From Bacteroidales bacterium (GTDB lineage: Bacteria > Bacteroidota > Bacteroidia > Bacteroidales > F082), in contig JAEEON010000074.1 in NCBI GenBank assembly GCA_016284305.1, positions 62,001 through 126,000 on the forward strand: DNA of 64,000 nucleotides, in the 5' to 3' direction. Under the pieces are notes generated by a model, which did not search any database, had not been told where the DNA came from, and saw only the letters and a list, made by a program, of their open reading frames with translations. Numbering within the stretch: the stretch's first letter is position 1; the number at the start of each line of letters is the position of its first letter. Shown here in pieces: positions 3,208-9,274 of the stretch. Made by a program: the position numbers and the translations under genes.

Positions 3208-5562
3208 TTACAGACCATCCCTATAATCCAACAATTCTTTAGCCGTTGTGAACAGGGGCTCCTCTGGTGTGTATGATCCAAACTCTTCCAAATGTTTCTT
3301 TCGCAAATCCACGAGAAGTTCTTTGATTCGTAACTTGCCAACCGTAACCTCCTCGTCGAATCGGTAAAAGAAATAATTGCCTTTAGGTTCAAAGGGATAC
3401 CATGTCTTTTTCATCCGTTCTTCAGAAACTTTTGGTGCCGTGTCTTTAACGTGGAAGACACGATACTTACCGCTACTTTCCACATCATCGGTGTAGAGAA
3501 CAACGAACTGCACCTTTTTCTTCTCATAAAAGGAAGCGAAATGAGCACCTTCTCTTGGCTCTTCTCCCTTTACCTGCAATCTTACGTTGTAAACCAGCGA
3601 CCCTTTGTCATTGTTGCCCAATATCCACTGTAGTTGTTCCTTTGATTTATAATAACCCACAAGAACACCATGGTCAGGATAACGTTCCAGATAATGCATG
3701 GTAAGCCATTGTGACATAACCAGCGGCTGTTGTAATTCTTGTTCAATGTCAGCCTTCAATACCTCATGTGGGTCTTTGCCCATCAAGCACTCCTCAATGA
3801 CAAAGTATTTCTTCAATTCATCAAATTGTCCCTGTGTTTCTGCCATTTTTTTTGCCGGACGTGCGTATGCAAAATACATAGTTCTATCCTCACCGTATGG
3901 CTGAAATACACGTCCATTCAACTCGTAAAAGTGTTGTTGCAGGTATAAAGCTCCGTCAACACCTAACCGAGCACGCATGGCATATATCTTGAATTCTTTT
4001 TGAATCACCTCGCGTATCTCGTCACGAAAGATATTATGGACATACTGTTTCCATATAGCCTTTTCATTCGATTTGTTTCGAGCATAGAGATAGAGTATGT
4101 ACAAGAAGTTTACGTCATATTGTGACAAGAAGAGTGTATCCCGGTCAAACAACCGATCCGGAAACTGATACGAGACCTTTGTACAGTGTTTCTCGTTCTT
4201 GTCCTTATGCTTAACGATGTTTTCATGAGCATTGTAACGACGATCATCATATACAAAAGCACTAATGAAGAAATTGGGGATCACATCATAGCCCTCAGTC
4301 ACGGAAGCATCTTGTAATCGTATGTCATTAAATTGTTTCCGATCTTCTTTGCGCAGCTTCCTATCCACTTCGTCATAAGCTGTTTCTTCCGCCAAAAATA
4401 GGTTGATGTTCCATTGGATCACATTCTTTGCGTAAGTGTACTGCTTGTAAATAGATTCTGCTGTCAGCGAGTGTCCACTTTTGTAGTATTTCGAATCTCC
4501 AATATAATACACCTCACGATCCATTTGCATATTGGCAGAAGTTAATGCCAAATCGGTGTATATGTGGTCCACACGTTTTCCATCAGTCTGATCAGCAAGT
4601 CCCTTAGGAATACTATTGCGCGGAGTGCCAATCAGTTCATCAATCATCGCTTCAAACACCACATTGAAACTCTTGGCCAAAATGTATTCTTGAGCGTGTG
4701 TATTGATGGCAATCCGGTATGAGTTTTCAAAAAATGCATAGCAGAGATCCCACAATTGAAGTGCTTTGTCAGAAAAGTATTTGTACTTGATCTGCATTAA
4801 CCGTGTTTTACCCATTCCACGCAGATACTGCTTGAACTGTTTGCCTTGTATCAGTTCATATTGTACATTGATAGGTGCATTGAATCCGTATTCCTGATTT
4901 AAATAATACAAAATGCTAAAAAAAATGATAAATAGTTCTTCCTCATAGTTTATTATCCGTTTCTTGTTGATTGGATTTACGTACACGGCTTCGTTGTCTT
5001 GTATGAATCCCTGCGTGTGGCCAATGGTACGAGTCCAGCTAATTTTGTTATTCCCGCGATGCAGGTTCTTTATAGTAAAGAGGACAAAGTCGCGGTTGTC
5101 ACGATTAAAGTCAATAAGAGAAAGAACAATATCCAGATAGGTCTCTGCCTTTTGGCGTGTCCCCTTGCCTGCTTGAGGAAGATGTTTATATAGGATAGCT
5201 TTGCTCTTGGGGTTGGACTTATAAAACACAATCAACGCACGGTAAATCCACACCGAAAACTCGTAAATAAACTTTCGGTATTCCTTGCCCAACTGTTCCT
5301 GGCCCTTCGGAGTGAGCACCATCTCGGGGGTGACTCCTTTCTCGCCTTCGTCTGTTTTCAGTTTAACACCCACCAACACTTCCTGTTCTGTCAGCAGCAC
5401 CTTGGGCAAGATGAACACACAATCGTGCAAATGCGGGTTGTAGAAATAGCCCACATATTGCACGCTCACCCGCTTATCTACATCTTGAAGCACATATATG
5501 TCCTTCAAGATTGTCTCCACAAGGTGGCTTTCATACTGGTGTTCTTCAAACAGGATGTACAT
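3208..5562 (-). CDS. mcrC: McrC/LlaJI-type restriction endonuclease subunit
   Basis: 784 aa; motif DGKRVDHIYTDLAL...YYIGDSKYYK typical of PD-(D/E)XK in McrC/LlaJI; start overlaps stop of the McrB ORF by 1 bp. Confidence 0.8.
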   Translation of the reverse strand: MYILFEEHQYESHLVETILKDIYVLQDVDKRVSVQYVGYFYNPHLHDCVFILPKVLLTEQEVLVGVKLKTDEGEKGVTPEMVLTPKGQEQLGKEYRKFIYEFSVWIYRALIVFYKSNPKSKAILYKHLPQAGKGTRQKAETYLDIVLSLIDFNRDNRDFVLFTIKNLHRGNNKISWTRTIGHTQGFIQDNEAVYVNPINKKRIINYEEELFIIFFSILYYLNQEYGFNAPINVQYELIQGKQFKQYLRGMGKTRLMQIKYKYFSDKALQLWDLCYAFFENSYRIAINTHAQEYILAKSFNVVFEAMIDELIGTPRNSIPKGLADQTDGKRVDHIYTDLALTSANMQMDREVYYIGDSKYYKSGHSLTAESIYKQYTYAKNVIQWNINLFLAEETAYDEVDRKLRKEDRKQFNDIRLQDASVTEGYDVIPNFFISAFVYDDRRYNAHENIVKHKDKNEKHCTKVSYQFPDRLFDRDTLFLSQYDVNFLYILYLYARNKSNEKAIWKQYVHNIFRDEIREVIQKEFKIYAMRARLGVDGALYLQQHFYELNGRVFQPYGEDRTMYFAYARPAKKMAETQGQFDELKKYFVIEECLMGKDPHEVLKADIEQELQQPLVMSQWLTMHYLERYPDHGVLVGYYKSKEQLQWILGNNDKGSLVYNVRLQVKGEEPREGAHFASFYEKKKVQFVVLYTDDVESSGKYRVFHVKDTAPKVSEERMKKTWYPFEPKGNYFFYRFDEEVTVGKLRIKELLVDLRKKHLEEFGSYTPEEPLFTTAKELLDYRDGL

Positions 5563-7095: not shown

Positions 7096-7869
7096 TCATA
7101 AACTTATTATATCCTCTGACAGATAGTCCTCCAAACTTTTAGATGTGAATCCGTCTTGATATGCAGTTATTGTTTGTTTGAATATCTGCCATTTATATTT
7201 GTTTCTTAACTCTTTGTCAATAAACGTTAGGTTTTGATCAATATGAGTTAGTAAGGTTGCAGTCTGCCTTATTGTTTTCTTTAATACAGAATTAGTATTC
7301 GTTGAATTACTTGTTATTTTATCAGGTATACCTTGGCTCAGCATTACGATTCTATCCGTTTGGATAGCCATTGTAAGGTATAAGCAGTCTGTTAAGATAG
7401 ATTTGATAGTTTGATAATTGTTTTGTCTGAAACAAATCAATAGTTTGTATATAGAATTATTCCTACGAAATGGCATATAATCTATCCAAATAATTGCATC
7501 AAGATAAAAATTAGCACTGTTGATGGCTTGTTGAATCATACTTTCTGTAATAGCAGTGTGTCCATTTAAGGCACGTATACAAGTGCTTCTAATTTGTAAC
7601 ACTTGATTGTACAGATTCTCAAAATGAGAAAACATAGTATTTTCTGCTTCCTTCTTTAGTTGAAAGTATTTCAATATCTCATAGGCAAGAACAATTAATT
7701 GACTTGCAAAGGCCCCGGCAAAGATGGCAAACAAAAAATCATTCGATATCCATCTTGAATTTACAATAACAATTTGATTTTCAATATTGAGAGAAACAAT
7801 ATACGTTAACACGAACACAATAGCCAAAAGCCAAAATAGTCGTATAATCGTATTTACACAAGTTGTCAT
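7096..7869 (-). CDS. Two-TM membrane protein with cytoplasmic helical domain, unknown function
   Basis: 257 aa; TM1 LFWLLAIVFVLTYIVSL, TM2 FLFAIFAGAFASQLIVLAYEIL, then a helical soluble region; lies inside the defence operon. Confidence 0.75.
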   Translation of the reverse strand: MTTCVNTIIRLFWLLAIVFVLTYIVSLNIENQIVIVNSRWISNDFLFAIFAGAFASQLIVLAYEILKYFQLKKEAENTMFSHFENLYNQVLQIRSTCIRALNGHTAITESMIQQAINSANFYLDAIIWIDYMPFRRNNSIYKLLICFRQNNYQTIKSILTDCLYLTMAIQTDRIVMLSQGIPDKITSNSTNTNSVLKKTIRQTATLLTHIDQNLTFIDKELRNKYKWQIFKQTITAYQDGFTSKSLEDYLSEDIISL

Positions 7870-7955: not shown

Positions 7956-8588
7956 TCAACTAATAATCAAATCTTTATAAACATAATACAGTTCATCGGC
8001 AATAGTTCTATTGTTGGGTGCCTCTTTTTTCAAAAGGCACTGCACTATTTCTCTGCTTATGTTGAACTTCAACCGTTCCTTAAACAAGTGGAAATCAACC
8101 ATCGTAGCATCGGTAGTTGTATTAATGAAAGCGTTTACTAAAGCCGAATTAAAACAATCCACATCTTTTTTGTCAAGATCTTCTATACGGATGCCATGTA
8201 ATACCCTGGCTTGTCTAACATCATCCAAACTGGTGGGAATAAAACCAAAACCAATAGCGTTGGTCAACTTGTAATTCTTTATGAACGGGTTGGAATTACA
8301 TGCCAACAAAAACAAGCGTTTCCCTTCTAATAGACCAATGTTGTCTTTATTGATTAATTGAACGTTATCGATAATGCTTGCATAGAGGCACGTGCTCATA
8401 CCATGGCCCAAAAAGAAAACGGTTTGAGCATCCTCAAGTTCATTAAAAATGAGTTCAAGCGGATCATCATCTCCAGAAGTATCATACCCAACCCCAACTG
8501 CATTGAAACTCGTGCAGATGTGTTCATACAGCGGACGAAGAAATGCCGTTGTGAAATCTTCCGGATATATGCAAACAGTCTTTTTCAT
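7956..8588 (-). CDS. CHAT/caspase-like (clan CD) cysteine protease
   Basis: 210 aa; VFFLGHGMSTCLYAS (catalytic His in hGHG) and KRLFLLACNSN (catalytic Cys in hhAC) spaced as in CHAT/caspase folds; ATGA overlap with upstream gene. Confidence 0.7.
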   Translation of the reverse strand: MKKTVCIYPEDFTTAFLRPLYEHICTSFNAVGVGYDTSGDDDPLELIFNELEDAQTVFFLGHGMSTCLYASIIDNVQLINKDNIGLLEGKRLFLLACNSNPFIKNYKLTNAIGFGFIPTSLDDVRQARVLHGIRIEDLDKKDVDCFNSALVNAFINTTTDATMVDFHLFKERLKFNISREIVQCLLKKEAPNNRTIADELYYVYKDLIIS

Positions 8589-9274
8589 CGGTTGACTTCG
8601 GTGAGATATGCAATGGTTTGGGTTAAAACGGCTTCAATCCATTCCTCGGAACGGGCATCGGATTTGCTGTCTATCATCTCTGCGATTTCTAGAAATGTCT
8701 TTCCCTTTAATTCTGGGCAACAAGAGCTGAAAACCATATCGCCGTTTGCCCGTAACAAAGCGCATAAACGATGCTCCATGCTGTCTTCGCTATCATGTCG
8801 CAAATATTTAAGGAGGTCTTCTCGGTAATCGACTCTACTAATGCAATCTATTATCTTGTCGTGAATCAATTGATTTATGCCCTCAACAAGTTGTTCTGAT
8901 GATGCTTTTTGATAGTCTTCTCCGATAACGCTATTGATCACTTTATTCCAATTGCCGGAATACACGAAAAAGTTCAAGTTTCTTCGAAATTCGTGAACCA
9001 TGTGAACTATATCCAATCCGTTCAAATAGTCACAATCCAAACCAAAATCTGTAAGAGCTATGTCTATCTGCTTGTCTTTGATTTCTGAAGCTATTTTATC
9101 TTTCAGCTTTGCGACATCCAAATCTTCCGAATCTTCTTTTTTCAACTCGGCGGAACTGGTTCGGATGAATATGAAATCCAAATCGAATTCTTGCCTTGTT
9201 GAAAGCTTGATGCTATCTATGATTTTTGTTTGGTCTTTATCATCAAACAGTAATATGCATTTTGTCTTCTTCAT
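8585..9274 (-). CDS. Receiver-domain (response-regulator-like) protein with helical C-terminal domain
   Basis: 229 aa; acidic pocket LLFDDKD, phospho-acceptor strand IDIALTDFGLDCDYLNGLDIV, conserved Ser strand FFVYSGN. Confidence 0.7.
   Translation of the reverse strand: MKKTKCILLFDDKDQTKIIDSIKLSTRQEFDLDFIFIRTSSAELKKEDSEDLDVAKLKDKIASEIKDKQIDIALTDFGLDCDYLNGLDIVHMVHEFRRNLNFFVYSGNWNKVINSVIGEDYQKASSEQLVEGINQLIHDKIIDCISRVDYREDLLKYLRHDSEDSMEHRLCALLRANGDMVFSSCCPELKGKTFLEIAEMIDSKSDARSEEWIEAVLTQTIAYLTEVNR

Follow-up and report, generated by a model that had tools for sequence, protein, structure and literature searches.

A predicted caspase-like protease as candidate effector of a four-gene, methylation-coupled two-component cassette in Bacteroidales

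A 210-residue protein encoded in a Bacteroidales genome is probably the minimal caspase-like effector of a compact four-gene, methylation-coupled two-component defence cassette, and abortive infection by that cassette is plausible. Its gene lies in a 64,000-nucleotide stretch of genomic DNA (the whole of which we refer to as the window), where the gene order is C5 methyltransferase, kinase, receiver and protease. Comparison of homologous loci led us to conclude that the protease gene is consistently placed last in a mobile operon of four genes, whose components and predicted functional residues in the window are as follows.

11641-12963, minus strand: C5-cytosine DNA methyltransferase (gene 1), start codon uncertain; matches Pfam DNA_methylase at 1e-56
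9284-11644, minus strand: sensor kinase (gene 2), 786 residues, start overlapping the methyltransferase stop (ATGA); matches HATPase_c_3 at 4.9e-23 and HATPase_c at 2.5e-18
9896-9898, minus strand: His583 of the kinase, predicted phospho-accepting residue; invariant in alignments
8585-9274, minus strand: receiver with an extra C-terminal helical region (gene 3), 229 residues; recognized by conserved residues and a profile match
9047-9049, minus strand: Asp76, predicted phosphorylation site of the receiver, from the alignment
7956-8588, minus strand: caspase-like (clan CD-type) protein, predicted protease effector (gene 4), 210 residues, ATG start; supported by alignment, profile and dN/dS
8403-8405, minus strand: His62, predicted catalytic, in a GHG motif (FLGHG); pairs with the caspase-1 His motif
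8298-8300, minus strand: Cys97, predicted catalytic, in a C-x-[ST] motif (LLACNS); pairs with the caspase-1 QAC motif

A sequence-only reading of this DNA had described a stand-alone open reading frame of 210 codons with FLGHG and LLACNS motifs, and that description holds. The frame is present, and dN/dS values between the window protease and its relatives range from 0.07 to 0.20 (for the pairs in which dS could be estimated), indicating that it is more than a chance reading frame and is a coding gene under purifying selection. The closest relatives are found in Bacteroidales genomes (97, 64 and 58% identity), and profile searches recovered members in other Bacteroidales families and more distantly within the same class, at 21–29% identity, as well as on a Stenotrophomonas rhizophila plasmid and two viral contigs. 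Conservation of the His/Cys pair in homologues had been set beforehand as a criterion for the assignment; both residues are invariant in all 14 sequences of our alignment, which spans 17–65% identity, and apart from these two, F16, G63 and F114 alone do not vary. The HG dipeptide is likewise present throughout (as GHG in 13 sequences and SHG in L022), while the residue preceding Cys97 is alanine or serine in 13 of the 14 and cysteine in L120. The distance from the histidine of the HG motif to the cysteine in its [AS]-C context is approximately 35 residues, as in clan CD cysteine peptidases. The window protease used as a query found no match among plasmids, phages and viral contigs; it was a profile of the kinase that brought up further cassettes in viral contigs. 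Weak profile matches in G341, G422 and a second site in the window's own genome (E 7.5e-4 to 4e-3) were left out of the homologue set, and no cassette surrounds either the G341 or the G422 match.

The same reading had called the protein CHAT/caspase-like, of which the second half has survived. No model in Pfam, NCBIfam, PADLOC or PHROGs matches the protease at E ≤ 1. The CHAT family (PF12770) was not matched by hmmscan, by the genome search or by profile–profile comparison, an hhalign comparison of the protease profile with 29 CHAT domains found nothing, and CHAT membership was therefore rejected. When the 14-sequence profile was compared with all PDB sequences, caspase-1 was the top match (E 0.0025), with its catalytic His (SHG) and Cys (QAC) motifs in register with those of the protease; caspases made up most of the 46 PDB matches, which cover approximately 50 residues and include redundant caspase entries. 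The best caspase E value fell from 0.067 with 11 sequences to 0.0025 after three homologues were added, so the caspase signal grew with the alignment. A weak alignment (P 0.019) by hhalign with 26 Bacteroidota caspase (C14) domains likewise matched the His and the Cys to their caspase counterparts; the caspase family model PF00656 itself found no match. Peptidase C25 (gingipain) was considered as well, as two of 11 members matched PF01364 (best E 0.018), and was not adopted because hhalign pairs mainly the C-terminal helices. In an AlphaFold model from a six-row alignment (pLDDT 73.2, pTM 0.73; a four-row alignment gave pLDDT 63.5), the protein forms an alpha/beta core with H62 following strand 3 and C97 following strand 4, and then a series of helices. 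By motif and profile, though not by the structure search described next, the protein likely belongs to clan CD.

The protein might instead be some other Rossmann-like enzyme or binding domain (flavodoxin-, TIR- or nucleotide-hydrolase-like) that still serves as the receiver's output. A Foldseek search with the AlphaFold model, which is of moderate confidence, returned no PDB match at E < 0.001 and placed flavodoxin-like and TIR-like Rossmannoids at the top, and the CHAT and C25 profile comparisons either found nothing or aligned elsewhere. We nevertheless regard this alternative as unlikely, given that the invariant pair follows two successive strands in GHG and mostly [AS]-C-x-[ST] contexts, as in clan CD, that profile comparison ranks caspases first and aligns both motifs with theirs, and that the alignment contains no further invariant polar residue that would suit a TIR domain or NADase.

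The kinase and receiver neighbours named in the sequence-only reading are real. The kinase consists of a GHKL domain (HATPase_c_3, paraMORC-like), a coiled coil, a DHp-like region and a HATPase_c domain, matches a histidine-kinase catalytic domain in the PDB (3.5e-10), and retains both ATPase domains across cassettes. The methyltransferases of homologous cassettes share 55–98% identity, with invariant PPCQ and ENV motifs. In the receiver, D11, D76, Y105 and S106 are invariant among nine homologues and reproduce the expected pattern of an acidic residue after strand 1, a phospho-accepting Asp after strand 3 and a Ser after strand 4; the strand-5 Lys of receivers is not evident in the gene 3 product. 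One receiver homologue (L014) matches Response_reg (4.7e-4), and the best PDB match of the receiver profile is the NtrC1 receiver (E 0.0085).

This arrangement is reminiscent of the two-component-like systems described by Bellieny-Rabelo et al. (2021), which combine a C5 methyltransferase with HEF_HK (PF19191) and Response_reg_2 (PF19192) proteins (PMC8011034): the C5 methyltransferase, the soluble kinase with HATPase_c_3, DHp and HATPase_c regions, the adjacent receiver and the restriction-modification context are common to both. Unlike those systems, the kinase has no match to PF19191 at E ≤ 1, no protein of the window's own genome matches PF19192 even at E 10, and the H-box reads LIH-T/N, with no acidic residue after the histidine. 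The related methylase-kinase-receiver family is reported from hundreds of genomes without an assigned function or output (PMC8011034), whereas the cassette described here has its own caspase-like gene immediately after the receiver.

As had been noted, the protease carries no fused sensor, TPR or otherwise, and the proposal that it is regulated in trans by its coupled neighbour agrees with a gene order and tight spacing that are retained in every testable homologue. The methyltransferase/kinase and receiver/protease junctions are both ATGA overlaps, the latter at 8585-8588, where the protease start and the receiver-gene stop share 4 bp. Across homologues the protease lies directly after a receiver gene in 13 of 13 context-testable loci, usually overlapping it; the fourteenth (L013) lies at the very end of its contig and is left out of this count. 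The 13 loci come from Bacteroidales, related Bacteroidota, the Stenotrophomonas plasmid and the two viral contigs. Searches that used only the protease sequence reached nine of these loci, the window among them (L022, L106, L120 and L234 were reached via the kinase or methyltransferase), and in all nine the protease comes directly after a receiver gene, so the association was not built in by the search. Spacing from receiver stop to protease start ranges from −14 to +11 bp, with overlaps of 4 or 8 bp predominating. Several loci are imperfect: in L015 the methyltransferase and the N-terminal part of the kinase are absent at a contig edge and the receiver frame is interrupted, while another contig of the same genome (L237) carries a methyltransferase and kinase start at its own edge; in L028 the kinase is split over two open reading frames. 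Wherever the locus is complete, a methyltransferase is included. A type II restriction-modification unit would include a cognate restriction endonuclease; no nuclease gene lies beside L014 or L029 or is shared across the set, and neighbouring restriction endonucleases vary between cassettes or are absent.

Kinase relatives on viral contigs carry the same methyltransferase-kinase-receiver set with other outputs. In one group (L107-L114 and L116-L119) the receivers, about 276–317 residues in length, are extended by a HEPN-like region with a C-terminal RNxxxH motif in 12 of 12 aligned viral-contig copies, and in L235 and L236 the receiver of a methyltransferase-kinase cassette is also fused to a HEPN-like domain. 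Several of these proteins weakly match HEPN families (HEPN_RiboL-PSP 7e-4, HEPN_Apea 0.026, Cas13-ApeA 0.002), and we predict from these motifs that they are phosphorylation-controlled RNases. The kinase is present in seven of 296 Bacteroidales genomes, accompanied by the caspase-like gene in five of them and by a REC-HEPN protein in two; no locus among those examined contains both. In the kinase tree, the protease and HEPN types are neighbours without a clean separation, and the protease label requires three changes, at least two of which are forced by supported branches. Among more remote kinase/receiver pairs encoded on plasmids, the next gene is an HNH gene (Deinococcus) or one for a metallo-beta-lactamase fold (Burkholderia), or else the receivers are long. 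With outputs that differ from cassette to cassette, the site behind the receiver behaves like a swappable effector slot. Neither this exchange nor the mobile, methyltransferase-led four-gene unit had been recognized in the sequence-only reading.

A second methyltransferase-kinase branch on viral contigs (L121-L135) has receivers of about 440–465 residues, whose C-terminal ~330 residues contain a CD motif (mostly CDxAQ-like) and an R-x-G near the C-terminus; the three that were scanned gave no convincing Pfam family. On a Campylobacter coli pTet-type plasmid (L024, 7001-11431) we observed a kinase, a receiver of about 330–345 residues and a convergent C5 methyltransferase. As 41 Campylobacter plasmid records match the kinase, the wider family extends to common conjugative plasmids.

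Downstream of the protease, the window contains three further genes.

7096-7869, minus strand: two-TM protein, adjacent cargo and not in the cassette; found only with McrB, in the window and L003
5562-7061, minus strand: McrB-like AAA_5 restriction ATPase, adjacent cargo; AAA_5 at 2.4e-6, PADLOC REase_II at 4e-38
3208-5562, minus strand: McrC-like nuclease partner, adjacent cargo; assigned by position and a DSKYYK motif only, with no Pfam match

Only in the window and L003 do these genes come after the protease. In L002 a Bpu10I-type restriction-modification system and Vsr take their place; L012, L014, L028, L029, L030, L106 and L120 have neither the 2TM/McrBC genes nor a Bpu10I-type system directly after the cassette; and L234, also without 2TM/McrBC, is followed by Vsr and two more C5 methyltransferases. 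From these gene contents we regard the 2TM and McrBC genes as neighbouring cargo of a defence island. The sequence-only reading had offered the adjacent 2TM protein or the STAND protein as candidate substrates of the protease. Absence of the 2TM gene from the other complete cassettes (and of any further match in 198 more Bacteroidales genomes) removes the basis for the first, and the second is not supported: Pfam identifies no STAND protein among eight neighbouring proteins, and the ATPase of the island is the McrB-like AAA_5 protein.

The island has further neighbours. DUF5131 and/or DedA-like genes lie at 14563-15895 in the window, 4863-5603 in L002 and 2170-2607 in L003; these shared flanks, combined with different restriction cargo in the three genomes, point to a probable insertion hotspot. 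Between the cassette and the DUF5131 gene (13883-14489, plus strand) is a likely ParE-type toxin (PF05016, 1.9e-6), preceded by a small open reading frame that could be its antitoxin. Elsewhere the cassette occurs in mobile settings, with a holin gene beside L106 (a viral contig), relaxase genes at L234 and TnsA at L022. The last of these, on Stenotrophomonas plasmid CP031730 (5700-12041), directly adjoins TnsA, which suggests that it is cargo of a Tn7-like transposon; the gene table of that record lists neither its receiver gene nor its protease gene.

Comparison of the window with L003 also revealed a local discontinuity.

8110-8580, minus strand: divergent block, window versus L003, marked by a drop in DNA identity within the protease gene

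The receiver gene (75–100%) and the 2TM gene (80–98%) are similar in the two genomes, whereas identity drops from 97% to 51–77% where the protease gene begins and rises again close to the 3′ end of that gene, and dS is 1.6 for the protease as against 0.36 and 0.33 for its neighbours. The N-terminal, catalytic part of the protease has been exchanged or diversified, a local allele replacement of a sort common in conflict genes. The McrC-like protein also looks exchanged, being 48% identical where McrB is 82% identical between the islands (3208-5562 in the window, 11540-13762 in L003).

We propose the following mechanism. The C5 methyltransferase would mark host DNA, which the GHKL/paraMORC-like kinase would inspect by means of its clamp or ATPase head. 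On encountering foreign or wrongly methylated DNA the kinase would autophosphorylate its conserved histidine, and the phosphate would move to Asp76 of the receiver. The receiver and protease would be made together by translational coupling, and the phosphorylated receiver would release or activate the protease, which would cleave one or more cellular proteins and so halt the infected cell. Sister cassettes would couple the same kinase/receiver pair to a HEPN-like RNase domain. What the comparisons show directly is the conserved operon, the invariant dyad, the intact kinase and receiver residues, the exchange of effectors and the mobile settings. Protease activity, the trigger, the order of the phosphorelay, toxicity and an antiviral purpose are all parts that we infer: the relay because the phosphotransfer residues are conserved, and the defence function because of the island, mobile-element and viral-contig contexts. 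Taken as a whole, the cassette may represent a restriction-type immunity in which self and non-self are written by methylation and read by a MutL/MORC-like histidine kinase, and in which a phosphorelay switches on a caspase-like protease (a HEPN RNase in the sister systems), so that DNA modification controls programmed cell death and no restriction enzyme takes part; we advance this full scheme tentatively, giving it slightly less than an even chance.

The main functional rival is that the cassette is a selfish addiction module, comparable to some type II restriction-modification systems, in which the methyltransferase protects, the kinase, receiver and protease kill cells that lose the module, a prophage or plasmid is thereby kept, and phage defence is a by-product. 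The occurrence of cassettes on viral contigs, beside a relaxase gene and on a plasmid, and the unfailing presence of the methyltransferase at complete loci, would fit such a role. The window cassette, however, lies in a chromosomal island with other restriction genes, as defence predicts, and addiction would not call for so elaborate a signalling relay; we judge addiction to be improbable. Least probable of all is that the protease regulates restriction, tuning or switching neighbouring McrBC or Bpu10I-type enzymes in response to the kinase: restriction genes do follow the cassette in the window, L002 and L003, and a regulatory role was proposed for related two-component pairs (PMC8011034), but those genes differ in kind (McrBC versus a Bpu10I-type system), are absent beside L012, L014, L029 and others, and protease-less cassettes fill the slot with a HEPN-like, toxin-type domain.

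The proposed defence cassette shares features with several known systems. ParaMORC GHKL ATPases are encoded in restriction-modification operons (Iyer et al. 2008, PMC2292703), and the kinase described here resembles them in having an N-terminal MutL/MORC-like GHKL ATPase encoded with DNA methylases; paraMORCs pair with helicases or nucleases or carry a fused nuclease or TIR domain, and a receiver partner is not mentioned in that study. Ymh-type HEPN domains are fused to paraMORCs (PMC3710099), and a relation of HEF_HK systems to paraMORCs has already been proposed (PMC8011034).

By analogy, Detocs appears to be the closest functional counterpart, in that two-component signalling drives a toxic output there and, as we propose, here. 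This defensive two-component system comprises three genes, and the best described of its effectors is a PNP that cleaves ATP (PMC11249213). Its outputs are exchangeable. Detocs has a TPR sensor kinase and an output fused to the receiver, and is not known to include a methyltransferase, whereas here the sensor half is GHKL/HATPase_c_3 and the effector a separate gene. With CHAT proteases (TPR-CHAT/Csx29, SAVED-CHAT/CalpL and gasdermin-activating forms) the window protease shares a clan CD-type dyad and a proposed suicide role, but it differs in having no PF12770 match and no fused sensor, and a receiver, not RNA or a cyclic nucleotide, is proposed to control it. With caspases (peptidase C14) it shares its best PDB profile match, extending through both catalytic motifs, but the matched region is confined to ~50 residues, PF00656 is unmatched, and the helical C-terminal half is different. 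Literature searches, in a library that omits most subscription papers and preprints, turned up no paper that describes a caspase-like output in systems with this type of kinase and receiver.

The protease is a candidate output for systems built from a methylase, a paraMORC-type kinase and a receiver, and it yields a testable hypothesis in which sensing of DNA modification leads, by a phosphorelay, to cell death driven by a protease or an RNase. The caspase-like effectors already known from bacterial immunity respond to different cues, RNA and cyclic nucleotides among them. If the hypothesis is true, a caspase relative controlled by phosphorylation would be added to bacterial immunity, and the logic of restriction-modification could drive suicide as well as DNA cleavage.
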